A stretch of DNA of 64,000 nucleotides from Alloiococcus otitis ATCC 51267 (lineage in GTDB: Bacteria > Bacillota > Bacilli > Lactobacillales > Carnobacteriaceae_A), in NCBI RefSeq assembly GCF_000315445.1, contig NZ_JH992959.1, forward strand, positions 18,274-82,273, in the 5' to 3' direction. The translations under genes were made by a program, and so were the position numbers. The notes under the pieces were generated by a model. That model had not been told where the DNA came from and did no database searches. It was given only the letters and a program-made list of their open reading frames with translations. This document shows positions 3,661-26,462 of this stretch, in pieces. The first letter of the stretch is position 1, and every line of letters starts with the position of its first letter.

Positions 3661-3738
3661 TTTGCTTCACCTTTCTAGTAATATATAGTATATTGTGTCA
3701 CAGCTTTGTCTGTTTTTCACAAGTATAGTATAACATAC

Positions 3739-3754
3739 TAGAAAGCGTTTACTA
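3739..3754 (-). promoter_or_regulatory. Putative cre site (CcpA operator) upstream of the PTS-IIC-like gene
   Basis: On the minus strand AGTAAACGCTTTCT matches the cre consensus TGWAARCGYTTWCW at all but the first positions and is nearly palindromic. It lies about 80 bases before the start codon, just upstream of an AT-rich TATACT-like box, a position suited to carbon catabolite control. Confidence 0.65.
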
Positions 3755-3892
3755 GTAATAAAATGCTTATAAAATATTAAATTAACAAAGATGGAAGGGT
3801 TTACCTTCTGTCAGGCTTTTTATTTGTGAAAGCCCTTCCTTTGGTCGCGGTCTTGCCACCCTTTCACAATGATTCTTAGCTTTGGGAATAGC

Positions 3893-4228
3893 CTATCTTT
3901 CCCATTCGGTATACTTTTTCCGGTTCCCCTTACTTTTACTAATTGGGTATTTTTGTGCGTTTTTAGCTAATTTATCGCTGATGATTTCATCAATGTCTAA
4001 GTCTAAATTATCCGCAAACATTAGGGCATAAATGAGGACATCAGCTAACTCTTCTTTGATGTGTGTTAAATTTTGATCAATAGCTTCCTGGCTGGACTGC
4101 CACTGGAAAATCTCTAGCAATTCCGAAGCTTCTAAGGAAATTGAGATGGCAAGGTCTTTTTCATTATGGAACTGGCGCCAGTCTCTTTCATCCCGAAATT
4201 GATTAACCTTATCAGTCAAATGATCCAC
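3893..4228 (-). CDS. MazG-like nucleotide pyrophosphohydrolase (dCTPase/RS21-C6 type)
   Basis: A small all-alpha NTP pyrophosphatase. The signature is present: EASELLEIFQW supplies the first E-x-x-E part and EELADVLIYALMFAD the E-x-x-D part that binds Mg2+ and the triphosphate. About 111 residues, usual for single-domain MazG proteins that hydrolyse non-canonical or surplus dNTPs (house-cleaning). The frame is open to 4258, but an AGAGGAGG ribosome site precedes the GTG at 4228 by the right distance, so translation probably starts there. It stands alone. Confidence 0.85.
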   Translation of the reverse strand: MDHLTDKVNQFRDERDWRQFHNEKDLAISISLEASELLEIFQWQSSQEAIDQNLTHIKEELADVLIYALMFADNLDLDIDEIISDKLAKNAQKYPISKSKGNRKKYTEWER

Positions 4229-4628
4229 TTTATTGCCTCCTCTTGAGTCTAGAGTCAATCTTCTTAAAGATGGCCCGCATGGCGAGTTAGTAGCCCTAAC
4301 CCGTCATGCCTCTGGTCACTATACCATCTATGTCAGAGACCCAGGGATAGTTGATCAGTATTTTCGGATCAATATTATCCAAATTTAACTAGCAATTTAT
4401 CAAATCCCTTACTCCATTGTATCAAATATGTGGACTAACTAGACCAGAAAACTTAGCCTATTTAAAAGAATTTTGACAAAATGGTTTATTGGTAAGACTT
4501 AGTGTAGCGCTAACAGTTAAGATTGGTATAGGTCATAATTTATATTTATAATAAGTTCCAAGTTACTTCTCTTGTCACTGATCCATCAAGTGGTATAATT
4601 GACTTACTAATCATAAGGAGGAAAAATT
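4229..4628. other. Intergenic stretch with a possible gene relic
   Basis: About 400 bases without an intact gene. On the plus strand, roughly 4237-4388 can be read without stops as a peptide ending ...GIVDQYFRINIIQI, whose codon pattern (GELVALTRHASGHYTIYVRDP) looks protein-like. It has no start site and overlaps the start of the MazG-like gene, so it may be the tail of a lost gene. The rest (4390-4600) is AT-rich and holds the promoter region of the aldehyde dehydrogenase gene. Confidence 0.35.
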
Positions 4629-5999
4629 ATGGCTTACAAGACAATTTATCCTTATACAAATGAAGTTCTCAAAAGCTATGATGATACGACTGACCAGGAA
4701 ATCGAAACAGCTCTTGACCAAGGTCACGCCCTTTACAAGAAGTGGCGCCAAGAAGACCAATTGCAAGAGCGAAAACAACACCTACTCAAACTATCCCAAA
4801 TCCTTTTGGACAATGTGGACCATTACGCTGAAGTTCTCACCAAGGACATGGGTAAACTCTTGTCCGAAGCCAAGGATGAGGTCAAATTAACCGCTAAAAT
4901 TGCCCACTACTATGCCGAAAAAGCAGAAGACTTCTTGCAGCCTACCCCACTGGAAACCAATGCGGGAGATGCCTACTATCTTAAACAAGCAACCGGTATT
5001 ATCATGGCAGTTGAGCCTTGGAACTTCCCTTATTACCAAGTTATCCGGGTCTTTGCCCCTAACTACATGGTTGGGAACCCCATGATCTTAAAACACGCTT
5101 CCATCTGCCCTGGTTCTGCCCAAGCTTTTGAAGACTTAACCAAGGAAGCAGGTATCCCAGAAGGTGGCTTTACCAATATCTTTGCAAGCTATGACCAGGT
5201 CAATGAGATTATTGCGGATGACCGAGTTTCAGGGGTCTGCTTAACTGGGTCGGAACGCGGTGGTTCTGAAGTTGCCCAACAAGCTGGTAAAGAGCTGAAA
5301 AAATCGACCCTTGAGTTAGGTGGGAATGACCCCTTCATCGTCCTAGAAGATGCTGACTGGGGCAAGGTTGAAGACTTACTTCCCTCTGCCCGCTTGTCCA
5401 ATGCTGGTCAAGTTTGCACCTCTTCCAAACGCTTTATCGTTTTAGAAAAAGATTATGATAAATTTATCGACCTCTTGCAGAAAAGCTTTGAAGAGGTCGT
5501 TTGGGGCGACCCAATGGATGAAAAAACGACCCTGGCTCCCCTCTCATCTGCCAAAGCCAAAGAAGACGTTCTTGACCAAATCAAAACAGCAGTGGACCAC
5601 GGGGCTAAAGTCGTTTATGGCAATGAAAGCATCGACCACCCCGGAAACTTTGTCCAGCAAACCATCCTAACCGATATCGACAAGGACAACCCCATTTACA
5701 ACCAAGAAATATTCGGTCCGGTTGCCATTGTCCACAAGGTGAAAGACGAAGCGGAAGCTATTGAGCTGGCCAATGACTCTTCATATGGTTTAGGGAACAC
5801 CATTATGAGTGAAGATACCGACCATGCCAAAGAAGTGGCTAGCCAGATTGAAACCGGCATGTCCTTTATCAACTCTTCTTGGGTTTCATTACCAGAACTC
5901 CCATTCGGTGGTGTGAAAAACTCAGGCTACGGCCGGGAACTCTCCGAACTTGGCTTTGATGCCTTTGTCAACGAACACTTGGTGTTAGTCGCTAACTAA
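4629..5999 (+). CDS. NAD(P)-dependent succinate-semialdehyde dehydrogenase family protein
   Basis: Aldehyde dehydrogenase of 456 residues, oxidising succinate semialdehyde or a similar aldehyde to the acid with NAD(P)+. The ALDH core is intact: GIIMAVEPWNFPYYQ near residue 120, the general-base Glu in LELGGNDPF, the nucleophile Cys in AGQVCTSSKRF, and the EIFGPVA box. It is the short class used by Firmicutes as succinate-semialdehyde dehydrogenase. AAGGAGG lies 8 bases before the ATG. It is monocistronic with a strong terminator; no GABA genes are nearby, so the physiological substrate is open. Confidence 0.87.
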   Translation: MAYKTIYPYTNEVLKSYDDTTDQEIETALDQGHALYKKWRQEDQLQERKQHLLKLSQILLDNVDHYAEVLTKDMGKLLSEAKDEVKLTAKIAHYYAEKAEDFLQPTPLETNAGDAYYLKQATGIIMAVEPWNFPYYQVIRVFAPNYMVGNPMILKHASICPGSAQAFEDLTKEAGIPEGGFTNIFASYDQVNEIIADDRVSGVCLTGSERGGSEVAQQAGKELKKSTLELGGNDPFIVLEDADWGKVEDLLPSARLSNAGQVCTSSKRFIVLEKDYDKFIDLLQKSFEEVVWGDPMDEKTTLAPLSSAKAKEDVLDQIKTAVDHGAKVVYGNESIDHPGNFVQQTILTDIDKDNPIYNQEIFGPVAIVHKVKDEAEAIELANDSSYGLGNTIMSEDTDHAKEVASQIETGMSFINSSWVSLPELPFGGVKNSGYGRELSELGFDAFVNEHLVLVAN

Positions 6000-9976: not shown

Positions 9977-9999
9977 ATCCAAGATAAAGATATTTTACT

Positions 10000-10077
10000 A
10001 AACATATCCCTGCGTCAGCATTACCTACTTCAGGTTCAATGAGTCAATCTCAGCCTTTAACGGCGCCCCACATGTTT
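10000..10077 (-). promoter_or_regulatory. TPP riboswitch (THI element) of the thiM-thiE-thiD-thiW operon
   Basis: The minus strand shows the conserved TPP aptamer blocks in order: GGGGCGCCGTTAAAGGCTGAGA, then TGAACCTGAAGTAGGTAATGC, then GACGCAGGGA, enclosed by a P1 stem AAACAT/ATGTTT. It should bind thiamine pyrophosphate and favour the downstream terminator, shutting off the thiazole/HMP salvage genes when TPP is plentiful. Confidence 0.95.
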
Positions 10078-10231
10078 ATATTATTATATTTTCTAAACTT
10101 ATGGTAACGGTTTAATGCTTCCCTGTCAATGCTTACTATTCTTGGTCTACTTTTACCTAGTAGGAGCAGGTGAAACAAAAGCGGAATAAGCCGGCCAGGT
10201 AGGATGGCTTTTTTTACCCTATTGCAAGCTT

Positions 10232-12620: not shown

Positions 12621-14000
12621 CTAACTAATTTGAGTTAAGACACGGGCAATCCGGTCCTGGTCGCCTTCAAGCAGAGTCCGGACATCAACTTGGACCTTGC
12701 CATCAGCAATTCGGGCAATGATATGATCTTTGGAAAGACGAAGGGCCCGTTCCAATTGGCTCTCCGTCAAGGTTTGGTGGCTTATTTCCACCAAGCTGGT
12801 AGCAAGTCTGGCTTCCGGATAGGCACCGCCACCAACTTGAGACTGGCCAGGGACTACTTCAACAGTATAAGGGCCATTTATCCCTTCAATTTTTTCTTTC
12901 AAGGCCTCTGCCTTTGCTTGTAACTGGTCAGGGCTCTGGCTTAAAAGCTGGAGGCTAGGAATGGTTTCAAAGGCTTGCTGAGGCTTGCGGTAGGCCTGTA
13001 GAGTCATTTCTAAAGCAGCTATAGTGAACTTATCCACCCTCAGGGCTCTTAAGAGGGGGTGGCCTTTTAATTGTTTAATGTACTTGGCCTTGCCCAGCAA
13101 AATACCCGCTTGGGGGCCACCCAAGAGTTTGTCCCCGCTAAAGGTCACGACATCGTAACCCGCCTGGATGCTTTCTTGAACAGTTGGCTCGTACGGCAAG
13201 CCTAAAGGTTGCAGGTCAAGCAAGAGACCAGACCCCAAGTCGTTAAAAATGGGTAATTGCTTGCGGTGAGCCAAGTCAACTAAATCTTGGTCACTGGGCG
13301 CCTCAGAAAATCCGATAACCCGGTAGTTACTGGTGTGGACTTTTAAAATAGCCCCGGTCTCTTCCCCGATAGCAGCTTCATAATCTTTTAGGTGGGTCTT
13401 GTTGGTCGCTCCGACTTCTTTTAAACGGGCTCCCACACTAGAAATAATATCTGGAATCCTAAAGGAGCCCCCAATTTCCACGAGTTGACCCCGGGAAACC
13501 AAAACTTCCTGATTTGAAAGGAGGGCAGTGAGCAGCAAAAGAACACCCGCTGCATTATTGTTAACAACTAAAGCCGCCTCAGCCCCGGTCAGTTCACAAA
13601 GAAGGTCTTCGACATGGCTGTAGCGGGACCCCCTTTGACCAGCCTGAAGGTTGTATTCCAGGTTGCTATAGCCTTCAGCTTTGGCCTTTAAACTTTCTAA
13701 ACTAGGCTTACTTAAAATGGCCCGGCCTAAATTGGTATGGAGCACTGTCCCTGTGGCATTGACAACCCGGTCAAAGGATAAAGAAGCCCGGTCAGTTAAT
13801 TCTTCATCCACTAAGCTAATAACCCGGTCTAGGGACAAGGATGGTGACTGGCCGTCCAGGATGGCCTGGCGAAGAGAGTCTAGAACTTGGTTGCAGACTG
13901 CCTTGATCAAGTCTTTAGTAAAAGTTTCCTGCCATTTTTGAATGGCCTCATCTGCTAGCAAGTCATCCATTTTAGGGAGTTGCCGGAGTTGGTCTTTCAT
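12621..14000 (-). CDS. selA: L-seryl-tRNA(Sec) selenium transferase
   Basis: PLP enzyme converting Ser-tRNA-Sec to Sec-tRNA-Sec with selenophosphate. Seen: the N-terminal ATGTVLHTNLGRA motif, GSRYSHVEDLLCELTGAEAALVVNNNAA, the DLGSGLL loop and the PLP lysine in TFSGDKLLGGPQAG. 459 residues, usual for bacterial SelA, with no frameshift. It is the third gene of selD-selB-selA, ten bases after selB. Together with SelB, SelD and the tRNA at 24.25 kb it completes the bacterial Sec route. Confidence 0.96.
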   Translation of the reverse strand: MKDQLRQLPKMDDLLADEAIQKWQETFTKDLIKAVCNQVLDSLRQAILDGQSPSLSLDRVISLVDEELTDRASLSFDRVVNATGTVLHTNLGRAILSKPSLESLKAKAEGYSNLEYNLQAGQRGSRYSHVEDLLCELTGAEAALVVNNNAAGVLLLLTALLSNQEVLVSRGQLVEIGGSFRIPDIISSVGARLKEVGATNKTHLKDYEAAIGEETGAILKVHTSNYRVIGFSEAPSDQDLVDLAHRKQLPIFNDLGSGLLLDLQPLGLPYEPTVQESIQAGYDVVTFSGDKLLGGPQAGILLGKAKYIKQLKGHPLLRALRVDKFTIAALEMTLQAYRKPQQAFETIPSLQLLSQSPDQLQAKAEALKEKIEGINGPYTVEVVPGQSQVGGGAYPEARLATSLVEISHQTLTESQLERALRLSKDHIIARIADGKVQVDVRTLLEGDQDRIARVLTQIS

Positions 14001-14010
14001 TTTTATTCAC

Positions 14011-15897
14011 CTACTTTGCCAAAATTCGTTTGTCTCCTAGGCGCTTGGTCACACCCTGATTGTCCAATGTCTCTAAGAAAGAAACAGCATATTTACGAGA
14101 AGTGCCAAGCAAGTCCCGGAAGTCGGGCAGGGTAATGGACCCGTCTGCCTTAATTTTTTCAATAGCTGCTTCTTTACCAGCCTGGTAAGCATCCTGGTGG
14201 AGGTAGACCTCCTTGTCAATCCGGACCAGTTCATGGTCAACCATAGATCGTAAGATTTCTACCTTAACGGGGTCATCTCCCACCACTTCTTTGACCTTAG
14301 GCGGTTTAAAGCCAGCCTCCTTGTAGGTTTTTTCCATATTCGTCTTGACCTGGCCCTGTTCTTCAGACAGGCTTGGATCAAAGCTGGCTAAACGCACCGT
14401 ATTGTCATCCTGGCTAATGACCTCCTCTTGGTCTAAGTGTTCTAAGAGAAGGTCGCGGTCTTTTTCCTCCACCTGGGTGAAATTTCCCCGCAATTCTTCT
14501 AGTGGCATGCCAGACCGGATCGGATAAGTCTCATGGTAGTCTTGCAGTAGTTTCACAACTTGGTCAGTAAACTGGTCCAATAAGTTCTCAGATATATAGC
14601 CTTGGCCAAATTGGTAGACTTGCTGGTCGGCCAACAAGTCTTCTAGGGTCACTTCAAGTTCTTGGTGTTCGACATTTAAATAGTTAGCGATTTCTTTTTG
14701 ACTGGTTAGACCAAAGGACCGGTGATCGAGGAAGTAGAGCGTTAAAGTAGCCAGGTCACCGGACTCTTTTACTTCAAAGCTTTTAATAACCTCATCGTTA
14801 AAACGGCGGTGCTTGTCGGGGGCTTCATCTAAGACTACCCCGCCGGCAATAGTGTAGAGGGGGGAGTAGGACCGTAAGACAAATCGGTCCCCCTTCTTCA
14901 CCGTTACCTCATCTTCTAGCCGTAATTGCAAGTAACCCTCCTGGCCAGGTTCTACCCTTTCACTGCCAATCGGAACAAGCCGGGCTAAGACTTCCCGACT
15001 TCCTAGATAGACATGGACCCGGTCCCAAAGTTCCAGGGCATAGGGGGAATGAGGCAGGCAGGTAACCTTTACATCTAGCATATAACTAGCCTTAAGGGGG
15101 CCAGTGGTTAAAATATCTCCCCGACTGACCTGGTCAAGGTCGACCTTGGCTAAATTTAAGGCTGTCCGATTGCCGGCATAAGCTGTTTCTACATCTTCCT
15201 TATGGATTTGAATATTCTTTATTTTCGTCTGGATTTTTTGGGGGTAGATGGTGATCGCATCCCCCAAATGAAGCACCCCTTCCTTGAGGGTACCTGTCAC
15301 AACTGTCCCAATACCCTTAACCGAAAAAGCCCGGTCGACATTCATCCGGGCAGGTAGGTCAAGGCGGCTGTTGGTAACATTTTGACACTGGTCGGTTATT
15401 TGCTGTCTTAGGGCTTCTAAACCAGTTCCGGATACAGCATCCGTTTCCACAATTGGAGCCTGGGCTAATGGCGTCCCGTCAAAGCGATCTTTGATATCTT
15501 CATAGACAATCTCTTTGAGGTCTTTATCCACCCCATCGACCTTGGACAGGACAATGATAAAGTTCTCGATTCCCAAAAGACTTAAGATAGCGGCATGTTC
15601 AATCGTTTGAGGCATGATTCCCTCATTCACGTCAATAACCAAGAGGACCAGGTCAATACCAGGAGCCCCTGCCAGCATATTTTTTAAAAACTTTTCGTGG
15701 CCAGGAACATCAACGATACCCACTTCTTCACCATTCTCCAAGTTCATATAAGCAAATCCCAAGTTAATAGATAGACCTCTACTATGCTCTTCTTCCATGG
15801 TGTCCGTTTCGATACCGGTTAAGGCTTTGATCAAGGTCGTCTTGCCATGGTCTACGTGGCCAGCTGTTCCAACAACCAAGTTCTCTTTATCTGCCAA
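14011..15897 (-). CDS. selB: Selenocysteine-specific translation elongation factor SelB
   Basis: GTPase that carries Sec-tRNA-Sec to UGA codons marked by a SECIS hairpin. The N-terminal G domain has [21 protein letters not shown] and a VLSKVDG motif; EF-Tu-like domains 2-3 follow, and the C-terminal 250 residues contain the winged-helix repeats that bind the mRNA hairpin (e.g. [20 protein letters not shown]). 628 residues, the normal size. A TTG start at 15897 is indicated by GGAGGA eight bases upstream; no ATG fits. It is preceded by selD at 42 bases and followed by selA. Confidence 0.96.
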
Positions 15898-15939: not shown

Positions 15940-16974
15940 TTAGTTGATTATGATGGTCTTGTCCTCTTTCTCACCAATCTTACCAATGACTTGGCCAAAA
16001 ACCTGCTGGTCTTTTAAGTCAGCTATTAAATCTTGAACCTGGTCAGGACTGATACTGATTAATAGACCGCCTGAAGTTTGGGGGTCGTAAAGAACCTCCT
16101 CCATGGCCCTGTCATTAAGATTAAATTGAACTTCTTTTTCTAAGAAGTTTCGGTTTTTCCGTGCGCCACCGGTGATCAAACGTTGGCTGGCAGCCTGGTA
16201 GGCTTCTTTCATAATTGGAATTTGACTAGCTTCTAAGTAAGCAGTAACTTTACCGGCTGTCATTTCCTTCAAGTGGCCCAGCAAACCAAAACCAGTTACG
16301 TCGGTGGCAGAAGAAACTTGGTAGTTTTGCATAACTTGACCAACCCCTTTGTTGAGGGTAGTCATCCACTGACAAGCCTGGTCATAAGCATCCTGGCTGA
16401 CCGCATCTGCCTTATGAGCTGTTGTGATCAGACCGGTTCCCAAAGGTTTCGTTAAGATCAAATAATCTCCAACCTGGGCCTTGTCATTCTCGATAATCTT
16501 GTCTGGGTGGACCAAGCCAGTCACCGATAGGCCATATTTAGCCGTGTCATCGTGAATGGAGTGGCCACCACTCAAGACAGCATCCGCTTCATGGACCTTG
16601 TCTGCTCCACCTTTGAGGATTTGACCTAGCATGTCATAATTTCCTTGGTCAGGGAAAGTCACAATATTAAGGGCTGAAATTACCTTGCCCCCCATGGCAT
16701 AGACATCACTTAAGGAGTTAGCTGCCGCAATTTGGCCAAACAAGTAAGGGTCTGACACCATGGATGGGAAGAAATCGATAGTCTGGATTAAGGCTAAATC
16801 ATCCCTTAACCGGTAAACGGAGGCATCGTCTGAAGAATCATAGCCCACTAGTAAATTATCATCTTCTTTGATCGGTAGTTGTTTGAGTATTTCGCTGAGG
16901 TCTCCCGGACCTATTTTAGCGTTTCAACCACCACAAGAAGAGAGTTGCATGTTGTATTTTTCTTCTTCTGCCAT
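15940..16974 (-). CDS. selD: Selenide, water dikinase, itself a selenoprotein (Sec17 at an in-frame TGA)
   Basis: Makes selenophosphate from selenide and ATP, the Se donor for SelA. A conventional reading starts only at 16848 and lacks the active site. Reading the TGA at 16924-16926 as Sec restores a 344-residue protein that begins MAEEEKYNMQLSSCGG-U-NAKIGPGDL; Sec17 and Lys20 fall exactly where E. coli SelD has Cys17 and Lys20. The family's ATP-binding and GGHSIHD-like motifs follow (VLSGGHSIHDD, SATDVTGFGLLGHL). The start at 16974 has GGTGG about six bases upstream. A hairpin follows the TGA. Sec-containing SelD is known from other bacteria. First gene of selD-selB-selA. Confidence 0.96.
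16893..16921 (-). promoter_or_regulatory. Candidate bacterial SECIS hairpin of selD
   Basis: Two bases after the TGA the mRNA can fold: outer stem CGCT/AGCG and inner stem AGGTC/GACCT with loop CGGGA, with an unpaired AAAAT on the 5' side. Distance and size match bacterial SECIS elements read by SelB; the exact fold is my hand estimate. Confidence 0.7.
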
Positions 16975-17185: not shown

Positions 17186-18292
17186 TTAGTCAATATCTTG
17201 GCCAGTAATGGTTGCCCCTATCCATTGTTTTAACATGTCCAAAGATGGTGCCATGACTTGGCCAGCCAAAGCGTCACGCAAGTAGAGTTCAAAGTTGCGG
17301 AAGCCGGTATAAGCCCGTCCTCCACCAATCCGCATGCCGAGGTTAGCAGATTCGGTCACATTTTCGGTAGCCACAACCCGGGCCGCTAAAACTTGAGGGA
17401 AGGCCGCATCCAGGTCCTCTCGGGCAGCCTGGGCGGCTTGTCTAGTTAGGGCAGTTGCTGCTTGGGCGTTGGAGTAGATAGTGGATATATGTCCTTTAAT
17501 GGCATCGACTTCGGACAATTTGTGGCCATCAGGATACTGGCGGTCAGTAGTATGCATAACAGCTTCGTCCACGATAGCTGTGTTTAAACCAGAATAGACG
17601 GCAGCTAGTCCAACCAAGAAGATAGTGTGGGTCTGTGGGTTATCCAAGCGGTCGGCTTCCGAAATGGACACATCCTCCAAGAACATTGGGCAAGAAACAT
17701 TCCCCCGCATGCCTAGGCCAGACCACCATTCCATTTTAAAAGTGACGCCGTCAGCATCTTTTGAAACCAAGAAATGTTTAGGGTCTTCATCCTCATCTGG
17801 TCCTGTAGCGTTGACCACGTAATAGTTCGCAAAGGTTGCGGAAGTCACCATGGACTTGGCACCACTTAAGATCCAATGGTCCCCGTCTTTTTTAGCTGAG
17901 GTTCGGTCTGGTTTTGTAAATTGGACTCCACCAGAAGTTTCGGAGTAAGCCAAACCAAGAAACTTACCTTCTTCAATCACTTCTTGGATGATTCTTTTTC
18001 TGGTCTCTTCATGGGCCGTTTTAAGGACACCATCCAAAGCCACATTGTGCATCAAGTAGGTCAAGCCCACTGTGGCTGATTTTTGGGCAAAAGTCCAAAT
18101 GATGTCAACTAGATCAGCAATATCGCCCCCGATGCCGCCTTCTTCTTGGGGGATCAGGAGTTGTAAGTATCGTTCTTCGTGGAGTTTTTCAAAAACTTCT
18201 TCTGGAAAAGCCTTTTCCTCATCTAATTTTTGAGCAATTGGTTCTATATATTCTTTAGCAAAGTCACTCGCCTGATCAACTAATTCTGTCAT
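17186..18292 (-). CDS. Acyl-CoA dehydrogenase-fold flavoprotein, paralogue 1
   Basis: A 368-residue protein of the acyl-CoA dehydrogenase fold (N-terminal helices, middle beta domain with AYSETSGGVQFTKPDRT and WWSGLGMRGNVSCPM, C-terminal helices). The C-terminal part reads MRIGGGRAYTGFRNFELYLRDALAGQVMAPS, where true acyl-CoA dehydrogenases have RDA...IYEGT with the catalytic Glu; here MAPS replaces YEGT. So dehydrogenation of acyl-CoA is doubtful; the fold is also used by flavin-dependent monooxygenases and other oxidases. It is closely related to the proteins at 18.5 and 22.3 kb. Monocistronic with its own terminator. Start chosen by GAGAGGA upstream of ATG. Substrate unknown. Confidence 0.85.
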   Translation of the reverse strand: MTELVDQASDFAKEYIEPIAQKLDEEKAFPEEVFEKLHEERYLQLLIPQEEGGIGGDIADLVDIIWTFAQKSATVGLTYLMHNVALDGVLKTAHEETRKRIIQEVIEEGKFLGLAYSETSGGVQFTKPDRTSAKKDGDHWILSGAKSMVTSATFANYYVVNATGPDEDEDPKHFLVSKDADGVTFKMEWWSGLGMRGNVSCPMFLEDVSISEADRLDNPQTHTIFLVGLAAVYSGLNTAIVDEAVMHTTDRQYPDGHKLSEVDAIKGHISTIYSNAQAATALTRQAAQAAREDLDAAFPQVLAARVVATENVTESANLGMRIGGGRAYTGFRNFELYLRDALAGQVMAPSLDMLKQWIGATITGQDID

Positions 18293-18397
18293 CCCATCAT
18301 TCCTCTCATACTATTTTAATGAACATTATAACAGGAATGAACCCCCGACCCAATCATTTACCCTTGACAAGGAGGGAAAAGACCTAGATGTTAGGGG

Positions 18398-18435
18398 AAA
18401 AGCCCTACTCTGTGGTCAAAAGAGCAGGGCTTTTT
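18398..18435 (-). terminator. Terminator of the second acyl-CoA-dehydrogenase-like gene
   Basis: AAAGCCCTACTCT / AGAGCAGGGCTTT-type inverted repeat followed by a T-rich stretch on the minus strand. Confidence 0.75.
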
Positions 18436-18470
18436 GGATCAGGCAGGCTAGATAAAAAATACTTAACACT

Positions 18471-19577
18471 TTAATCCATCTCTTGACCCGTCAATGTCTC
18501 CCCAATCCATTCTTGCAGCATGTCCAAGGATGGGGCCATGACTTGACTGGCAAGAGCATTTCTTAAATAGAGCTCAAAGTTCTTGTAGCCCGTGTAAGCC
18601 CGGCCACCGCCAATCCGCATACCCAGGTTAGCTGATTCAATAACATTTTCGGTTGCCACAACCCGGGCAGCTAAGATTTGGGGAAAGGCAGCTTCAAGGT
18701 CATCCCGGCCTGCCTGGGCAGCTTGCTTGGTTAAAGCAGTCCCAGCCATGGCTTTGGAGTAAATAGCCGAAAGATGGCCTTTAATGGCATCCACCTCTGC
18801 TAGCTTGTGGCCATCTGGGTACTGGCGGTCCTGGGTGTGGTCAATAGCTTCTTTGGCAATGGCCATATTGAGTCCTGAGTAAACAGCAGCGAGTCCTGCT
18901 AGAAAGACAGCGTGGGTTTTAGGATTATCAAGCCGGTAAGAGTCAGGCACCTGGACCCCATCCATAAACATTGGGCAGGAGACATTGCCCCGCATGCCAA
19001 GGCCAGACCACCATTCCATTTTAAAGCTTACCCCAGGGTCATCCTTGGCGACGATGAAGTTTTTAGGATCTTCTTCCTCTTGGGCATCTTTGGCTATAAT
19101 GACATAATAGTCAGCAAAAGTGGCAGAAGTCACCATTGATTTTGCCCCATTGAGGGTCCAAGTGTCACCTTCTTTTTTGGCGACGGTTCGGTCAGGTTTT
19201 CTCGTTTCTACCCCGCCAGAGGTTTCGGAATAGGCTAAGGCCAAGAACTTGCCCTCTTCCTTGACTTCTTTGGCAATTTGCTTTTTAGTCTCTTCCTTGG
19301 CAGCCTGGATAACGGCAGCTAAGGCCACATTGTGCATCAAGTAGGTTAAGCCAACTGTGGCCGACTCTTTTGCAAAAGCCCAGGTAACCTCAACTAGGTC
19401 TACAATATCCCCGCCAAGTCCACCTAAGTCTTCTGGCACCAGTAATTCAAGGTATCGCTCTTCATGGAGCTTGGTTAAAATATCTTGCGGAAAGGCGGAT
19501 TCTTCATCTAATTCTTGAGCCACCGGTTGGATATACTGCTTGGCAAATTCAGTCGCCTTATCTAAGATTTCAGACAC
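18471..19577 (-). CDS. Acyl-CoA dehydrogenase-fold flavoprotein, paralogue 2
   Basis: A 368-residue sister of the gene just downstream, sharing motifs throughout: LTYLMHNVAL, AYSETSGGVETRKPDRT, NGAKSMVTSATFADYYV, WWSGLGMRGNVSCPMF, RQYPDGHKL, and the same C-terminal GGRAYTGYKNFELYLRNALASQVMAPS that lacks the usual catalytic Glu motif YEGT. The start is probably the GTG at 19577, with AAAGGA upstream, aligned with the starts of both paralogues. Separate terminators flank it, so each copy can be expressed independently. Tandem duplication of this gene within a selenium region suggests a dose or substrate-range need. Substrate unknown. Confidence 0.85.
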   Translation of the reverse strand: MSEILDKATEFAKQYIQPVAQELDEESAFPQDILTKLHEERYLELLVPEDLGGLGGDIVDLVEVTWAFAKESATVGLTYLMHNVALAAVIQAAKEETKKQIAKEVKEEGKFLALAYSETSGGVETRKPDRTVAKKEGDTWTLNGAKSMVTSATFADYYVIIAKDAQEEEDPKNFIVAKDDPGVSFKMEWWSGLGMRGNVSCPMFMDGVQVPDSYRLDNPKTHAVFLAGLAAVYSGLNMAIAKEAIDHTQDRQYPDGHKLAEVDAIKGHLSAIYSKAMAGTALTKQAAQAGRDDLEAAFPQILAARVVATENVIESANLGMRIGGGRAYTGYKNFELYLRNALASQVMAPSLDMLQEWIGETLTGQEMD

Positions 19578-19696
19578 ACCATCAGTCCTTTCATTTTCAG
19601 TATTGATAGCAAAAAACTAAGTTAAATAAATATAGTCTATTTTCGTCCCCGTCATTGTCCCTTAAGCTAGTAAGTTCTAGCAAGTTAGGCCCAATA

Positions 19697-19741
19697 GAAA
19701 AGCCCTAGCCCATTCATTTTTCTCTAAACCGGCAGGGCTTC
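19697..19741 (-). terminator. Probable terminator of the four-gene operon ending in the OsmC-like gene
   Basis: AAAGCCCTAGCC can pair with GGCAGGGCTT (one mismatch). On the minus strand a short AT-rich stretch follows. Weaker than its neighbours. Confidence 0.55.
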
Positions 19742-19761
19742 ACATTTGGATGGGGGGACCA

Positions 19762-20235
19762 CTACAAAATGAAGTGGGGTTCTATCTCAATAGGGGAAGA
19801 TTGGTTGACCAATTGGAAGATGGGGTTGTCTACTTGACAATCCCTTGCCATCCGGTCCAACTTTTCTTCATCGTCATCAGCATAATAGTAGATTTTGACC
19901 TTGATATTTTGAATTTGAGCCGGCTGGTCATAACCCCGGACAGGAACAAGTCGCAAAGGGTTTTGGAGGTCTGCCTCAATAACCCCTTCAATTTCATCCA
20001 GGTCTATTTTCTTTTGTTTCAAATGGTTTTGGAAGGTCCAAATAACTGACGACAGAATGCTCCCCATGAAATAGGACAAGGCAGAATAACCTTCGTCTTC
20101 AATGTCAAAGCTAACCACTTTGTCAACGTCGAACCGCTTCCGTCCAGTATAGAGTTTGACCTTGTCCAAATCAGGGTTGGTCCCTCTCATATGAAGGCTA
20201 TAGACTTGAGATTCTTTTGGTTTATGATTGGTCAT
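19762..20235 (-). CDS. OsmC-like protein
   Basis: 157 residues of the OsmC/Ohr fold: an N-terminal strand pair (QVYSLHMRGTNPDL, KLYTGRKRFDVDK), the long helix GYSALSYFMGSILSSVIWTFQNHLKQ, the EGVIEADLQNPL strand and the C-terminal ARDCQVDNPIFQLV helix. OsmC/Ohr proteins are thiol peroxidases with two cysteines. Here only the second, resolving-type Cys is kept; the position of the peroxidatic Cys in the long helix is Ser, so normal peroxidase chemistry is unlikely. Last gene of the ACAD3-PhnD-MetE-OsmC operon, overlapping the MetE-like gene by 14 bases. Function unknown; family call fairly firm. Confidence 0.72.
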   Translation of the reverse strand: MTNHKPKESQVYSLHMRGTNPDLDKVKLYTGRKRFDVDKVVSFDIEDEGYSALSYFMGSILSSVIWTFQNHLKQKKIDLDEIEGVIEADLQNPLRLVPVRGYDQPAQIQNIKVKIYYYADDDEEKLDRMARDCQVDNPIFQLVNQSSPIEIEPHFIL

Positions 20236-21409
20236 AACGATCTCTCAATTCTTGCTTAACTTCACTTAAGACTTGGAGCTTGTTTTCGATAAATGCTAGG
20301 CTGTTGACCGGTTTTTTGGAAAAAGTGGCAAAGCCACAATCCGGATTCAAGTTAATCCGGTCAGCTGGCAGGTAGTCAAGGGCTTGGTCCACTTGCTTAA
20401 TGATCGTCGCCTTGCTTTCTGTTTCATCCTTTCTGGGGTTCATAACCCCCAAGCCTAAAATGGTCTCCTCACCAAATTGATGGTTGGTGAACAAGGAATC
20501 AATGCTCCCAGCCCGGTCTGTCGAATATTCCAGGTACAAAATATCAGGATTGGCATAGTCGAACAAGTCGAGCAAGGGGGTGTATGGTCCTTCAAGTAAA
20601 ATGCTTTCATCTTTGGACCAGTTACCCCGGCAAACATGGAGGGCCACATTGCTTTGACTGCGGTCGATGCCGTCAAAGGTCTTCTTGAGCAAGTCCTTGG
20701 CAAAAGCGAGTTCGTCACTGGGGTCTTTTTTCTCAGACAAGGAGGCACACATAAAGGTCCGTGTGTGCTCTGGTGAGAAGACAACTTCGGTCAAGACTGG
20801 CTCATCAAATTGAACCGTGTCCACCCCAAGCTTCTGCAAGTCTTTTACTTCATCTATTAGGCACTGGACAACGTCTTCACCCAGTTCTTCTTTTGAGTCA
20901 TAGAAGTTGTCAGACAGGCCTTTGAGCCACATGGACCGGGTGACCAAATAAGGCCCGGGCAGGGTGATTTTAACCTTGTGGTCGGTCATTTCTTTTAACA
21001 TTTTTAATTCTGACCCAACCAAGGACTTGTCCCGGCTGATTTTGCCAAAGCAAATGGCGTTTTTGATCACACTGCCAGGAACATCTAAAATGCCTAGCAT
21101 GTCTTCATAGGCCTGCTTGTCCTCAATATAGTCCAGCATTTCTGTATTGCTCATCATTTTGACATTGTTTAAAGAATTGGCAATAAAGGAGACGTAATTG
21201 TCCCTGGCAAGTTCACCTGAGACAATATAGTCCAGGTCATACTTTTCTTGGAGTCGAACAATTTTTTCGGTTTCTTGGTAAACCAAGTCCTCATATTCGT
21301 CTTGTTCGAGACGATTTTTGCTGAGGTCACGCTGGGCTTTTAATAAGGTTTTAGACCGGGGCATGGAGCCAATGAGTGAATTGGCGAAGCTTTGAACAGT
21401 CATCAACAT
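20222..21409 (-). CDS. MetE C-terminal-like zinc methyltransferase (cobalamin-independent methionine synthase family)
   Basis: A 395-residue TIM-barrel protein corresponding to the catalytic half of MetE only. The zinc ligands are in place: His258 and Cys260 in VALHVCRGNW, Glu294 in LYLEYSTDRAG and Cys358 in NPDCGFATF; the VDTVQFDEP motif near residue 200 is also kept. Such short proteins transfer methyl groups from folates or other methyl compounds to a thiol (or selenol). The lack of the N-terminal folate half and its place between a PhnD-like and an OsmC-like protein argue against ordinary methionine synthesis. The start is taken as the first ATG; ATG at 21403 is possible. Confidence 0.82.
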   Translation of the reverse strand: MLMTVQSFANSLIGSMPRSKTLLKAQRDLSKNRLEQDEYEDLVYQETEKIVRLQEKYDLDYIVSGELARDNYVSFIANSLNNVKMMSNTEMLDYIEDKQAYEDMLGILDVPGSVIKNAICFGKISRDKSLVGSELKMLKEMTDHKVKITLPGPYLVTRSMWLKGLSDNFYDSKEELGEDVVQCLIDEVKDLQKLGVDTVQFDEPVLTEVVFSPEHTRTFMCASLSEKKDPSDELAFAKDLLKKTFDGIDRSQSNVALHVCRGNWSKDESILLEGPYTPLLDLFDYANPDILYLEYSTDRAGSIDSLFTNHQFGEETILGLGVMNPRKDETESKATIIKQVDQALDYLPADRINLNPDCGFATFSKKPVNSLAFIENKLQVLSEVKQELRDRYDQS

Positions 21410-21420
21410 CTACCCTTCTC

Positions 21421-22239
21421 TTAATCAAAAAAGTTTAAATAATCGACTGCTTGACGGATTTCTTCATAGTTACTGGTCCGGCCAGGCAACCATTCTTTTA
21501 AGCCTTCTAAGTCTAGGATTTCCTTGTCCTCTGGCTTGTCGTAGTCCATTTTCATCAAGACTTTCGTAAATTGGTCGATCAGGTTTTGGTCGAGGCCAGG
21601 TCGTCCGGTAAAAATACAGTGGTCAAAAGGTTTAGTTTGGCCAATCACTTCCACTTGGTTTTCATCCAAAGTCCCATCTTTGAGCCAACCCTCATAGTTA
21701 CCAGCTATGGCAAAGCCAGCTGCATTTTCACCTGACTGAACGGACTGCAAGGCATCTTTTTCGCCACCAACGTGGTCTCCGTCCAAGCCAAGGCCCAGGT
21801 CAAACCGAACTTCTTCATAATCCTTGCCGTAAGCCAGACCTTCTTCACGCAAGTATTGGATGGGGATCAAACGAGCTTGAGGAGAGTCAAGGGCTCCAAA
21901 GGCAATTTTTTGTCCTTTGAGGTCAGAAACACTTTTGATATCACTGTCTTTTCTGGTTACCAAAACACTGTGCAAGTCACGGTCGGTGTCCCGCATGCAA
22001 GCATGGACCACTCGGCTACCAGATTTCAACTCAGCCTCCAGGTTAGCCAGGGGAGAATTCCAAGCTAGGTCGACTTCGCCATCCAAGAGTCCCTGGACCT
22101 GGTTGCGGTAGTCGTCAAAAAAGACTGGTTCAACTTCAAATCCATCGCCGTTTTCTTTAATAAAATCAACAATTTTCTCCCAGACAACAGTTACCTTGGG
22201 ATCATACACAACTGCGCCAACTTTTAAGCTATCAGACAT
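21421..22239 (-). CDS. PhnD/SsuA-type ligand-binding protein without a signal peptide
   Basis: 272 residues of the phosphonate/transferrin-type periplasmic-binding fold: KVGAVVYDPKVTVVWEKIVDFIKE at the start, VDLAWNSPLANLEAE, the GQKIAFGALDSPQARLIPIQYL segment and a late AGFAIAGNYEGW. Extracytoplasmic binding proteins of Gram-positives carry a lipoprotein signal; this protein has none and begins directly with the first beta strand, with GGAGGA before the ATG. There is no ABC permease or ATPase nearby. It probably acts in the cytoplasm, possibly as a sensor, carrier or enzyme, and lies 11 bases before the MetE-like gene. Ligand unknown. Confidence 0.78.
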   Translation of the reverse strand: MSDSLKVGAVVYDPKVTVVWEKIVDFIKENGDGFEVEPVFFDDYRNQVQGLLDGEVDLAWNSPLANLEAELKSGSRVVHACMRDTDRDLHSVLVTRKDSDIKSVSDLKGQKIAFGALDSPQARLIPIQYLREEGLAYGKDYEEVRFDLGLGLDGDHVGGEKDALQSVQSGENAAGFAIAGNYEGWLKDGTLDENQVEVIGQTKPFDHCIFTGRPGLDQNLIDQFTKVLMKMDYDKPEDKEILDLEGLKEWLPGRTSNYEEIRQAVDYLNFFD

Positions 22240-22280
22240 TAATAGATTCCTCCTAATAGTTCATTCAAACGATTCAATTA

Positions 22281-23390
22281 CTACTGGATCATGTCTTGGT
22301 CGGTCAAAGCCGCCCCAATCCACTGGTAGAGCATATCCAAGGATGGTGCCATAACTTGACCAGCCAGGGCGTCTCTCAAGTAGAGTTCAAAGTTTTTGTA
22401 ACCTGTGTAAGCCCGGCCACCACCGATCCGCATGCCTAAGTTAGCTGACTCATTGACATTTTCAGTGGCAACAAGTCGGGCTGCTAAGATTTTAGGGATG
22501 GCTGCTTCAAGGTCCTCTCGTCCGTCATAAACTGCATCCTTGGTGACCGCTGCAGCAGAAACGGCATTACTGTATATTTTTGAAATATGGCTCTTGATGG
22601 TATCTACTTCTGACAACTTGTGGCCATCCGGATATTGCCGGTCCATGGCATGACTGATGGCTTCTTGGGCAATAGCCATATTCAAGCCAGAATAGACTGC
22701 CGCCAAGCCAGCAAGGAAGAGAGGAACGATGTCCGGGTCTTCCAAGCGGTCTTGGTCACTGACGACCACATCTTTTAAGTCCATTGGGCAGGAAACATTC
22801 CCCCGCATCCCCAAACCATTCCATAATTCCATTTTAAAGTTGACGCCATCTGCATCTTTGGCAACAAGGAAGTTTTCAGCATCTTCTTCACTTTCAATGG
22901 TTTTAGCAATCACAATATAATAGTCGGCAAAGGTTGCTGAAGTAACCATGGATTTTGACCCGTTAATAGTCCACTTGTTTCCGTCTTTGACAGCCTGGGT
23001 GGTATCTGGTTTGTAAAATTCTACCCCGCCTGTCGGTTCGGAGTAAGCTAAGGCTAGGAACTTACCGTCTTCAATCACTTCTTTGATTATTTTTTGTTTG
23101 GTGGCTTCTTCCCCTGACTGGACCACGGCATTTAAGGCCACATTGTGCATCATGTAGGTCAAGCCAACAGTAGCTGATTTAGCCGAAAAAGCCCGGATGA
23201 CTTCAGTGTGGTCAACAATATCCCCACCTTGTCCGCCCAGTTCTTTAGGAATCAGTAATTCTAAGTACTTTTCTTGGTGAAGCTTGTCAAAAACCTCTTC
23301 CGGAAAAGCTTTTTCTTTATCCAATTTGTCTGCTACCGGTTCAATGTATTGGCTAGCAAATTGGCTGGCCTGGTCAAATATTTTAGTCAC
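22281..23390 (-). CDS. Acyl-CoA dehydrogenase-fold flavoprotein, paralogue 3
   Basis: About 369 residues, the third member of the set, sharing SEPTGGVEFYKPDTTQ, NGSKSMVTSATFADYYIV, WNGLGMRGNVSCPM and GGRAYTGYKNFELYLRDALAGQVMAPS. The canonical YEGT glutamate is again absent. It differs slightly more from the other two, e.g. ELWNGLG for EWWSGLG. First gene of an operon with the PhnD-, MetE- and OsmC-like genes. The ATG at 23399 touches its ribosome site; the GTG at 23390 has proper spacing and gives the same N-terminus (xTKIFDQASQF) as the two paralogues, so I place the start there. Substrate unknown. Confidence 0.84.
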   Translation of the reverse strand: MTKIFDQASQFASQYIEPVADKLDKEKAFPEEVFDKLHQEKYLELLIPKELGGQGGDIVDHTEVIRAFSAKSATVGLTYMMHNVALNAVVQSGEEATKQKIIKEVIEDGKFLALAYSEPTGGVEFYKPDTTQAVKDGNKWTINGSKSMVTSATFADYYIVIAKTIESEEDAENFLVAKDADGVNFKMELWNGLGMRGNVSCPMDLKDVVVSDQDRLEDPDIVPLFLAGLAAVYSGLNMAIAQEAISHAMDRQYPDGHKLSEVDTIKSHISKIYSNAVSAAAVTKDAVYDGREDLEAAIPKILAARLVATENVNESANLGMRIGGGRAYTGYKNFELYLRDALAGQVMAPSLDMLYQWIGAALTDQDMIQ

Positions 23391-23597
23391 TTTATCCATC
23401 CTCTCTTGATTTATTTATACAGTTTAATGTGATTAAGACCAAGCATTGACTTGCTTGGCTAAGTCTGCCCCTGACTATTCCGCCGGCTTTCTTCCTTTAG
23501 GATAGAATCAGATGTCTAGACCTAAATCCTTCATCCATGGTTCGGCAAGGAAAAAATTGAAACGAAAGTTTGCCGAAGAGCTAACTTTTCAGCCTAC

Positions 23598-23936
23598 TTA
23601 AGCTGGGAAGACAACTTTAGGACTGTTAGCAAACAGGTCCACAATCTTAGGCATGGAAGTAATGGTGCCAACTTCAATCTTATCATTTAAGTCATAATAG
23701 TTGACACAAGTTCCGCAAGTGGCAATGTCAACCCCTCTTTCAGCTAGGTTAAAGAGGTCGTCTAAGGCTTGTGACCCTGAAGCAGTAAGGAAGGCCCCAT
23801 CCCCGTAAAACCACAAGTGGTCTGGTAGGTCCACTTTTTCAGTTAAGGTATGGAGGAAGGTCAGCATCAAGTTCTCTGTCAAGTCCTTTTCGCCTTCCCC
23901 CATGGCTTTGCTTGTCACAACAATATCATAACTCAT
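23598..23936 (-). CDS. DsrE-domain protein resembling the C-terminal half of YedF (selenium metabolism)
   Basis: 112 residues: VVTSKAMGEGEKDLTENLMLTFLHTLTE, then LWFYGDGAFLTASGSQALDDLFNLAERGVDIATCGTCVNYYDL and DKIEVGTITSMPKIVDLFANS. This matches the DsrE part of YedF, a protein that elsewhere has a TusA-like domain in front and is found with selenium genes; the CGTC pair is the likely sulfur/selenium-carrying site. The TusA part is absent: AGGAGG lies directly before this ATG and no upstream extension exists. It lies between the ACAD3 operon and tRNA-Sec. Likely role: handling of reactive sulfur or selenium, by inference. Confidence 0.8.
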   Translation of the reverse strand: MSYDIVVTSKAMGEGEKDLTENLMLTFLHTLTEKVDLPDHLWFYGDGAFLTASGSQALDDLFNLAERGVDIATCGTCVNYYDLNDKIEVGTITSMPKIVDLFANSPKVVFPA

Positions 23937-24250: not shown

Positions 24251-24348
24251 GGGAATGGATGGGAAACTGGTGTTCCCTCTGGTCTTCAAAACCAGTATGA
24301 GGGGTTAGGAGCTCCTTGGGTGAGTTCGATTCTCACACATTCCCGCCA
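24251..24348 (+). tRNA. selC: tRNA-Sec (anticodon TCA, reads UGA)
   Basis: A 98-base tRNA with GGGAATG acceptor stem paired to CATTCCC, an anticodon stem-loop whose seven-base loop CTTCAAA gives anticodon TCA (24286-24288), a long extra arm (GAGGGGTTAGGAGCTCC region), a T-loop GTTCGAT and an encoded 3' CCA. The long variable arm and TCA anticodon identify selenocysteine tRNA. It is transcribed from the plus strand, against its neighbours, from its own promoter and ends at a strong terminator. Confidence 0.96.
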
Positions 24349-24634: not shown

Positions 24635-24670
24635 AAAAGACCCAAGCGTTAAGTCACGCTTGGGTCTTTC
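24635..24670 (-). terminator. Terminator of the selenoprotein NADH oxidase gene
   Basis: AAAGACCCAAGCGT pairs with ACGCTTGGGTCTTT, usable on both strands. Confidence 0.88.
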
Positions 24671-24702: not shown

Positions 24703-26085
24703 TTAAAATAGTAGGGTGTCACTACCGAATGTGTAGTCATCACCAAGTGCTTGCATGGCAAGAACATTCAAGTAGTTCCATGGTCTGTTGTATTCTGGTT
24801 GGAAGAAGAAATCAGCTGTCGCTAATTGCTCTAGGGTCCAACCAGCAGTCAAGGCGATAGACATGGAGTTGGCTAGTGGCCCAACCACATCATCTTTAGC
24901 CATAAACTGAGCCCCTACAATACGGTGGCTATCTTTAACATAGTGAATTTTCATGTGAAGGGTGCCAACTGGATTTTCACCGTTCCCCATGAAGGATGGC
25001 AAGAGGGGTTCTTCAACATATTTGCTTTCAACTTCTTCTTGGATCAAGTTGAGGTTAATGTCCTTGATACCTGTGGAAGCGAAGTAGTAGTCAAATACCC
25101 GCAAGCCGGAAGTGCCGTTGATGGTTGGCGCTTTGTATTTGTTTCCTTCAATCATGTTTTTCGCTGCAATAGCTCCACCGCGTCTGGCATTTGTCGCTAA
25201 ACCAATTCTGATTTTTTCACCAGTTGGTCCGTATGGCAATTTAGTAGCATCTCCAGCGGCATAAATGTTTTCGTCTGAAGTCTGCATGTAGTCATTGACG
25301 ACCACACTGCCATCAGGGTTCAAGTCCACGACTCCGTCTAGCCAGTCAGTTGCTGGGTGCATACCAACGGCAAAAATAACGGTGTCTGCTTCGTATTCAC
25401 CCTTGTTGGTGACAACACCTCTAACATTCCCATCTTCATCACCTAGAATTTGCTGAACAGCCTCAGAAGTTTTAATCTTCAAGCCACTATCGATGGCGTG
25501 GCTGGTCAAGGTTTCAGTAAATTCTTTATCCAAGTAGGTTGGGATGATGGTTTCCCCAAATTCAACGATAGTGGTATCAATATTGGCAAGTGAAATAGCT
25601 TCACCAAACTCAATACCGATGTAGCCACCACCAATAACGACAACTTTTTTGGCCTCTTCCATTCTCTGTTTAATAGCTCCGGTCCAGTCTCTGCCTGGGG
25701 TAAAGTAAATGTGGTCATAGTTTAGGCCAGGAATATTCAAGACATTTGGTGCAGAGCCTGGGGAAATAAAGAGTTTGTCGTAAGAATCTTGGTGCTGTCC
25801 GTCTGGTGTTTCAACTGTAATTGTTTTGCCTTCTGGGTTAATGTCAACAACATCACTATTTAAATGGACATGGACACCTTGGCAGGTGTAGGAGTCAGCA
25901 TTTGCATAGTGGAGAGAATCCAACGTCTTAGAAATACCTTCTAAGTAAGATTGGCTCCCTCAACCCATAAATGAAGCAGAGTCACCTTTTTCGTAAAGGT
26001 GGAGTTCCGCATCGCTTTGGTTTTTCAAGTAAGTCTGGATAACTTCGTGTCCAGCGTGTGAAGAACCGACAACTGCGATTTTCAT
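24703..26085 (-). CDS. Selenocysteine-containing NADH oxidase/peroxidase-family flavoenzyme (Sec42)
   Basis: FAD- and NADH-binding enzyme of the Nox/Npx/CoA-disulfide-reductase family. Read conventionally it would start at 25923 without its FAD domain. With the TGA at 25960-25962 as Sec, the 460-residue protein begins MKIAVVGSSHAGHEV (FAD loop and conserved His10) and reaches ASFMG-U-GSQSYLEG; Sec falls at residue 42, the position of redox Cys42 in the enterococcal enzymes (FLSCG). Downstream are the NAD-binding VVVIGGGYIGIEFGEA, IYAAGDA and the C-terminal FFQPEYNRPWNYLNVLAMQA dimer domain. AGGAGGAAT precedes the ATG. The likely job is NADH-dependent reduction of O2, peroxide or a low-molecular-weight di-sulfide/selenide. 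A good promoter stands upstream and a hairpin follows the TGA. Confidence 0.93.
25919..25954 (-). promoter_or_regulatory. Candidate bacterial SECIS hairpin of the NADH oxidase gene
   Basis: Five bases after the TGA the mRNA can form a lower stem CCAA/TTGG and a perfect 7-bp upper stem CTTAGAA/TTCTAAG closed by the loop GGTAT. Apical GGU loops at this distance are typical of bacterial SECIS elements. Confidence 0.78.
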
Positions 26086-26115
26086 AAATCATTCCTCCTA
26101 TTCATTGATACCCAC

Positions 26116-26144: not shown

Positions 26145-26357
26145 GCTTCCACCATAGCGGCAAGTAGTCTTTATAGAAAACGGGTTGAATGAAATACTTG
26201 GTTCTTAAATAATCCAAACCAAAGGAGGACTCGCTTCAAATCACCGGATCTCACAAGAGCCTGCAAATTGAAAATGGTCATTCATGTATACTTAATCCCA
26301 AGTTAACTTGCCTAAGCCAATTATCCATGATAAGTTAGTGGTGTAGCAAGCCTTTTC

Positions 26358-26428
26358 ACTAGGGGTAGTCATTAGACTTGAGAATGACCCTTTGAACCTG
26401 ATCGGGTTAAGACCCGCGGAGGGAAGTG
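26358..26428 (+). promoter_or_regulatory. TPP riboswitch of tenA
   Basis: CACTAGGGGT opens P1; CTTGAGAATGACCC, TTTGAACCTGATCGGGTTAA, and GACCCGCGGAGGGAAGTG are the conserved TPP aptamer blocks, with P1 closed by CACT/AGTG. Control seems translational: see the following hairpin. Confidence 0.94.
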
Positions 26429-26462
26429 AGTGGTTAGGTGGGCTTTTTGCCTGCCAAAGTCC

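Follow-up and report, generated by a model that had tools for sequence, protein, structure and literature searches.

Among enzymes that form a stabilised cysteine sulfenic acid, the NADH peroxidase (Npx) of enterococci is a textbook example. Excerpts of the published work describe the Enterococcus faecalis enzyme as cycling through Cys42-SOH (PMC1847454). Further sources, again in excerpt, predict a selenocysteine (Sec) 'NADH oxidase' in Geobacter metallireducens (2006, PMC1794560) and in ocean metagenomes (2008, PMC2398784), and two reviews list a Sec 'FAD-dependent oxidoreductase (CoA-disulfide reductase, NADH oxidase)' (PMC9312934, PMC13188914), the 2026 list giving the motif UGxP. As to the Lactobacillales, the relevant part of the 2006 study counts E. 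faecalis as the sole SelD-bearing member at the time (PMC1794560), and the excerpted text of a 2016 survey mentions the order for other traits (PMC5029168).

We analysed a 64,000-nucleotide stretch of Alloiococcus otitis ATCC 51267 DNA (the window, meaning this stretch as a whole), in which a gene on the reverse strand at 24703..26085 carries an in-frame TGA at the catalytic Cys42 position. We consider it probable (about 0.8) that this gene encodes an NADH peroxidase-like flavoenzyme whose UGA42 is read as Sec by SelA, SelB, SelD and tRNA-Sec, and which uses selenium to reduce H2O2 to water with NADH. The frame runs from the initial M at 26085 to a final F and the stop at 24703 (460 codons plus stop), and the TGA (25960..25962, reverse strand; codon 42) is its sole internal stop. 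An AGGAGG ribosome-binding site is present on the same strand at 26094..26099, 8 bases 5' of the ATG, and a terminator-like inverted repeat with a T run, read from the sequence by eye, follows the gene at 24635..24669 (reverse strand). Without read-through the open-reading frame begins at TTG 25923 and gives a 406-residue product that would be without the FAD-binding loop and His10, and the residues at and after the Sec site of the full-length form are U-G-S-Q. The original prediction had described a full-length flavoenzyme frame interrupted by this TGA, with AGGAGG ahead of an ATG at 26085, the FAD loop and His10 encoded only in the read-through part, and the TGA at residue 42 where the enterococcal enzymes have their redox cysteine; the 460-residue product, the position of the AGGAGG and the alignment with homologues confirmed all of this.

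The prediction had also placed the Sec machinery in the same window, and all four genes were located: selA (12621..14000, reverse strand), selB (14011..15897, reverse strand), the tRNA-Sec gene (24251..24348, forward strand) and selD (15940..16974, reverse strand). SelA, SelB, SelD and tRNA-Sec, the components expected for a bacterial selenoprotein, are thus all encoded in the genome. A TGA also interrupts the selD frame, at 16926-16924 (SSCGG-U-NAKIG) and with a hairpin, so the genome has at least two Sec-type genes; the listed selD open-reading frame (16848-15940) misses the true start, the full gene being 16974-15940. Nine TGA read-through frames within the window passed our filters; of these, only the NADH peroxidase-like gene and selD have a suitably spaced hairpin with G in the first two positions of its loop. 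A YedF-like protein is encoded at 23598..23936 (reverse strand), matching the C-terminal part of the YedF model at 106.3 bits (cut-off 110). The stretch between selD and the peroxidase-like gene (17186-23399, reverse strand) holds three Rv1679-type acyl-CoA dehydrogenase-like genes, an Rv1680-type/putative selenate ABC substrate-binding protein gene, a MetE-like gene and an OsmC-like gene, a set perhaps concerned with organosulfur or organoselenium uptake and breakdown. Rfam matches elsewhere in the window comprise two TPP riboswitches (26351-26441, forward strand; 9990-10080, reverse strand) and two group II intron matches at 20-285 (reverse strand).

To place the gene among its relatives, 395 Lactobacillales genomes were put through two uniform screens in which at most four candidates per genome were scored. 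With the window protein as query (1e-100) 102 of the 395 genomes gave a match, 17 of them with TGA at codon 42 (U42 genes hereafter), with a Vagococcus-type U42 query (1e-120) there were 103 matching genomes and 11 with TGA, and the two screens combined identify 22 of the 395 genomes as carrying this codon, the window genome among them. All 22 U42 genes, when read, have the TGA exactly at codon 42 and zero other internal stops (no frame was obtained for loci L157, L158, L174 and L036). Homologues with U aligned to Cys42 therefore exist and the window gene is no lone case. SelB scored above cut-off in 41 of the 395 genomes, and tRNA-Sec above cut-off in all 41, which makes Sec use in lactic acid bacteria patchy yet wide. 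Every one of the 22 U42 genomes is SelB-positive, and the remaining 354 genomes yielded no U42 gene (Fisher p 3.7e-25, counted by genome); counted by genus, U42 occurs in 13/18 vs. 0/62 (Fisher p 2.7e-11). Two screens and a looser search found no U42 gene in 19 of the 41 SelB-positive genomes; the looser search (1e-45), made in those 24 SelB-positive genomes where the window query had given no match with TGA, returned five U42 genes, all also in the Vagococcus-query screen. Of the 27 genomes in the family to which the window belongs, exactly three have SelB above cut-off, the same three that have U42. On one contig (G257) the order is U42 gene (418-1779), tRNA-Sec (1817-1909), one open-reading frame and selB (3082-4938). 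In a phylum-wide sample of 398 genomes (E 1e-90) this protein had a TGA in just two, the window genome and G033, both Lactobacillales and both already found. The 59 other rows examined, in which some genes appear twice, all carry Cys at position 42. Since the 22 genomes (of 395) that share this UGA all have the Sec machinery, its decoding as Sec is very likely, and on this sequence evidence we regard the TGA42 gene with high confidence as a genuine Sec gene.

What the enzyme does is a separate matter. The best match of the window protein among solved structures is the enterococcal NADH peroxidase (360.6 bits, residues 1-448), with solved NADH oxidases at 281.5 and 220.7 bits and CoA-disulfide reductases at 159 bits. 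For an AlphaFold model built with 28 aligned sequences and Cys substituted for Sec (mean pLDDT 90.1, pTM 0.86), the six top-ranking Foldseek matches are all NADH peroxidases (TM 0.93/0.95, 41% identity) and the next is an NADH oxidase (TM 0.91/0.93), so that the predicted fold by itself separates peroxidase from oxidase only slightly. His10, Glu14 and Arg303, which we take to have active-site roles in NADH peroxidase, are kept in the window protein (the Arg is window residue 301, reference 303) and present in 37 of 37 Npx-like Cys rows, a count that includes locus/protein copies (e.g. L124/P0012) and leaves out G204, as do all residue counts; Arg303 is replaced by Ser in 1 of 15 Npx rows and 1 of 11 Npx-like Sec rows. 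The NADH-oxidase (Nox) clade (24 rows) keeps His10, and has Ala (14 rows), Ser (9) or Gln (1) at residue 14 and Val (23) or Thr (1) at residue 303; the naming of this clade rests on one row scored against solved structures (569 bits to a solved NADH oxidase vs. 409 to NADH peroxidase). With the NADH oxidase model NF046103 (cut-off 600) the window protein scores 305.5 bits, three other U42 proteins 324-398 and two Nox-clade rows 492.7 and 490, and since the Nox-clade rows also fall below 600 that cut-off itself decides nothing. The CoA-disulfide reductase model TIGR03385 gives the window protein 269.1 bits against a cut-off of 578.8, and its motif is U-G-S-Q, not CGxP/UGxP. In both trees (described below) the window protein is in a separate clade (100/100), outside the Enterococcus/Vagococcus Npx clade (100/100 and 100/99), the latter being named, in trees without an E. 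faecalis Npx row, after P0002, a Vagococcus-type U42 protein (684 bits to E. faecalis Npx), and Enterococcus Cys rows. We know of no characterised member of the window protein's clade and, given its separation from Npx, term the protein NADH peroxidase-like rather than Npx proper. Since it is closest to Npx by sequence and predicted fold and keeps His10, Glu14 and Arg303, and the Nox rows differ at 14 and 303, we call it peroxidase-like with good confidence; residues 14 and 303 and the tree position make an NADH oxidase function less likely. The original prediction's assignment to the Nox/Npx/CoA-disulfide-reductase family thus stands as to membership, and is refined by bit scores, residues 14 and 303, tree and fold to a peroxidase-like, not oxidase-like, enzyme.

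It is unlikely, in our estimate, that this genuine Sec enzyme has a main substrate other than H2O2 and instead reduces disulfides, diselenides or persulfides or acts as a water-forming oxidase, a reading for which there is room as the window protein is only 40-41% identical to Npx-proper sequences and sits in its own clade, and as the wider family includes CoA-disulfide reductases, persulfide reductases and oxidases, with NADH oxidase nearly equal to peroxidase in fold score. The window gene is near yedF and selABD. In 4 of 10 neighbourhoods, from related genomes (G248, G147, G196 and G208; loci L133, L134, L135 and L137) the U42 gene lies between, and on the same strand as, genes which from their sequence we take to be metK-like and patB/malY-like, whilst in G328 (locus L131) it is beside the metK-like gene with the patB-like gene four genes away, an arrangement that hints at a role in the metabolism of sulfur or selenium amino acids. 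Against this reading, Glu14 and Arg303 match NADH peroxidase and not oxidase, CoA-disulfide reductase scores far below peroxidase, and the Sec CoA-disulfide reductase predicted in the excerpted literature has UGxP where the window has U-G-S-Q.

Selection on either side of the TGA bears on a far less probable reading, that the TGA is a nonsense mutation in a dead gene or that only the 406-residue downstream product is made. Over codons 1-41, seven pairs of U42 genes have dN of 0-0.10, with dN/dS of 0.07, 0.04, 0.10 and 0.05 in four pairs and 0 in one near-identical pair (the ratio is inestimable in the remaining two as dS is saturated), and over codons 43-130 dN/dS is 0-0.14: purifying selection acts on the stretch ahead of the TGA, and the protein sequence is kept on both sides of it. 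Gene callers do list short products, and among the 120 matches of P0002 listed from a large protein database, 95 begin after codon 42, 24 have Cys and one has Trp, so that many database entries of this type of enzyme are without their N-terminus; the short ones include Vagococcus and Enterococcus raffinosus, gilvus, pseudoavium and hulanensis. We nonetheless reject a nonsense mutation or short product, given the recurrence of TGA42 in 22 SelB-positive genomes, with a second stop in 0 of the 21 other U42 genes and hence no stop followed by decay in relatives, the selection upstream, and the loss of the FAD-binding loop and His10 from the short form. That a reassigned or suppressor tRNA reads UGA as Trp or another residue without selenium is the least probable reading of all and is rejected, as the Trp among the 120 listed matches and the W at 42 in the full-length representative of cluster P0004 (99% identical; 11 members, 17 contigs) are what a table-4, UGA-as-Trp gene caller would write, SelB and tRNA-Sec are in all 22 U42 genomes, and Trp at the catalytic Cys site would not sustain the redox chemistry known for this family. 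Sec at the Cys42 site, as originally predicted, is therefore supported by recurrence (22/395), co-occurrence with SelB and tRNA-Sec, and selection.

Plasmid copies belong to the same picture. Five E. raffinosus megaplasmids encode full-length matches (~83%) to a Vagococcus-type U42 protein, codon 42 is TGA in both of those that were read, and selB is in all five records. In the record that was opened, selD-yedF-DUF3343-selB-PLP enzyme-selA are grouped together, and the RefSeq CDS K5P74_RS18095/WP_261321796.1 (plasmid pCX012922) runs across the TGA, which means that NCBI's pipeline already handles this copy as a complete gene; it is named only 'FAD-dependent oxidoreductase' and selenium is unmentioned in the feature table. 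An E. raffinosus megaplasmid (L191, NZ_CP081847.1; L189) has both the Sec gene cluster and the U42 NADH peroxidase gene, and on a Ligilactobacillus salivarius plasmid (L192, NZ_LT604075.1) selA/selB/selD are accompanied by a D-proline reductase (prd) operon, an instance of Sec use on plasmids of lactobacilli.

Returning to the Sec peroxidase reading, UGA42 would be decoded by the window's own SelA/SelB/SelD/tRNA-Sec system, and, by analogy with the enterococcal enzyme, the Sec42 selenolate would attack H2O2, aided by His10, Glu14 and Arg303, giving a selenenic acid which NADH-reduced FAD would return to the selenolate. As FAD would reduce the selenenic acid directly, a second thiol is unneeded. 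The likely gain over Cys would be a faster attack and, above all, avoidance of irreversible over-oxidation in an enzyme whose one redox residue is without a resolving thiol. A heme catalase is also encoded in the window genome, so peroxide defence does not rest on the U42 enzyme alone.

The RNA signal is less uniform than the protein. The bacterial SECIS (bSECIS) model, as given in the excerpted 2026 review, has a 4-16 bp stem, a 3-9 nt loop with G in its first two places and a spacing of 16-37 nt, and a subset of genes fails it (PMC13188914). The perfect 7-bp hairpin noted after the TGA in the original prediction is present at 25927..25945 (reverse strand), 14 bases 3' of the TGA, as CTTAGAA-GGTAT-TTCTAAG; with its 7-bp stem and a GGTAT loop beginning 22 nt after the UGA it fits this model, and its own significance against synonymous recodings is marginal (p = 0.037; 0.060 with a wider hairpin model). 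A contiguous-stem test found a standard hairpin in 12 of the 22 U42 genes (the window and 11 others) in two registers, one (window, G019, G224 and G093) having GGTAT or GGGAC loops on stems such as TTAGAA/TTCTAA or TTAGAG/CTCTAA, the other (G328, G248, G147, G196, G208, G101, G020 and G257) having GGA or TGGAT loops on stems such as TACCT/AGGTA or TATCT/AGATA, and within each type paired changes are seen on both sides of the stem. Jointly the 12 hairpin genes depart from synonymous recodings (Fisher p 2.4e-5). We take this as moderate support, since these genes share ancestry and the recoding test is a liberal one, passed at 0.05 also by 13 of the 59 Cys rows (which include the duplicates L034/L150/G093a, L147/G245, L148/G251 and L149/G204).

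In the ten U42 genes of the Vagococcus/Enterococcus clade (L142-L146 and L151-L155) the contiguous-stem test found no hairpin; allowing one bulge or mismatch and longer loops gave weak hairpins in eight of ten, with energies of -0.4 to -3.5 kcal/mol, no p value under 0.09 and a joint p of 0.66. Either these genes have a SECIS of another class or the bSECIS model is too strict. RNAalifold gave no structure common to all 22, excess synonymous conservation 3' of the TGA was absent (the segment there ranked 168th of 447 for group A and 111th of 436 for group B), and hairpin energies did not differ between U42 and Cys genes across all 22 (p 0.24) but did for the 12 of group A (p 0.005).

Relationships between Cys and Sec forms were examined in two trees. 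Tree 1 (64 rows, ten residues, 38-47, masked) kept only five Nox rows and omitted the copies L034, L147, L149 and L150, L032 with the near-copies L016, L031, L152, P0050 and P0022, and also L148, taken as a copy though its twin was absent; tree 2 (68 rows) restored L148, had more Npx-clade Cys rows and one E. raffinosus copy, added P0199, P0214, P0224, P0239 and P0244 and additionally omitted P0012 and P0024. The Sec label needs five changes in tree 1, four of them forced by supported branches, and five in tree 2, all five forced. A single origin of the Sec form, with all Sec rows in one clade, is rejected by the AU test in both (p 1.6e-50 and p 0.0007). There were thus several separate Cys/Sec exchanges, which may have run from Cys to Sec or from Sec to Cys, and the long branches of the window, G020 and G257 make their individual placements unsure.

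Six columns besides 42, chosen by criterion, separate the 22 Sec rows (including the near-copies L151/L152) from 41 Cys rows outside Nox: Met40 (22/22 Sec vs. 5/41 Cys), Gly41 (20/22 vs. 0/41), Thr135 (20/22 vs. 0/41), Asp134 (18/22 vs. 5/41), Tyr285 (18/22 vs. 5/41) and Ala327 (20/22 vs. 5/41). Met40, Gly41 and Thr135 occur jointly in the Sec lineages of the window, of G020, of an eight-row clade and of the Vagococcus/Enterococcus clade, with G257 and G101 as the exceptions at 41 and 135. In independent pairs the direction is consistent for 40, 41 and 135 and weak for 134, 285 and 327, and as there are only four such pairs, with which a sign test is unable to reach 0.05, we treat Met40/Gly41/Thr135 as a pattern and not as proof. 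For residue 40 the titles of PDB entries 1nhr and 1nhs are of interest: they state that L40C turns the sulfenic-acid centre into a disulfide, which suggests that residue 40 is able to reach residue 42. We give even odds to the broader proposition that NADH peroxidase constitutes a natural, repeated selenium experiment, in which at least four Cys/Sec exchanges were nearly always accompanied by Met40, Gly41 and Thr135, a lone selenol would cycle via a selenenic acid reduced directly by FAD with no resolving thiol, and Sec in the Vagococcus/Enterococcus forms would be inserted without a standard bSECIS hairpin.

Compared with described systems, the water-forming NADH oxidase (NF046103; PDB 5er0, 2bc0) has the fold and the Cys42 site in common with the window protein, yet its clade has Sec in 0 of 24 rows and Ala/Ser/Gln14 and Val/Thr303 in place of Glu14 and Arg303. 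Geobacter metallireducens WP_011365774.1, a predicted Sec protein in the excerpted literature, is of the same broad family (COG0446/TIGR03385), and a Sec site shared with the window protein is suggested by its motif; this motif is UGxP, whereas the Lactobacillales U42 proteins have NADH-peroxidase residues and, in 20 of 22, U-G-[STA]-Q. The literature searched, which left most subscription papers outside and was judged by titles and the openings of abstracts, contained no Sec form of NADH peroxidase and nothing on its breadth or recurrence. As far as these sources go, the Sec peroxidase form with its spread and repeated appearance appears to be what is new here, Sec in the wider CoA-disulfide-reductase/NADH-oxidase family having been predicted already. 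The closest described relative is E. faecalis Npx (PDB 1joa/1npx/2npx/1nhp), which shares with the window protein full-length homology, the fold, His10, Glu14, Arg303 and residue 42 as single redox centre; the window protein differs in its TGA for Cys42, Gly for Ser41 and separate clade, and the Vagococcus-type P0002, at 684 bits, is far closer to the E. faecalis enzyme. Read as Sec, TGA42 would give a natural selenium form of this textbook enzyme, and as natural Cys and Sec forms are ~69% identical (P0002 vs. Enterococcus Cys genes), the question 'why selenium?' becomes directly testable with one enzyme.
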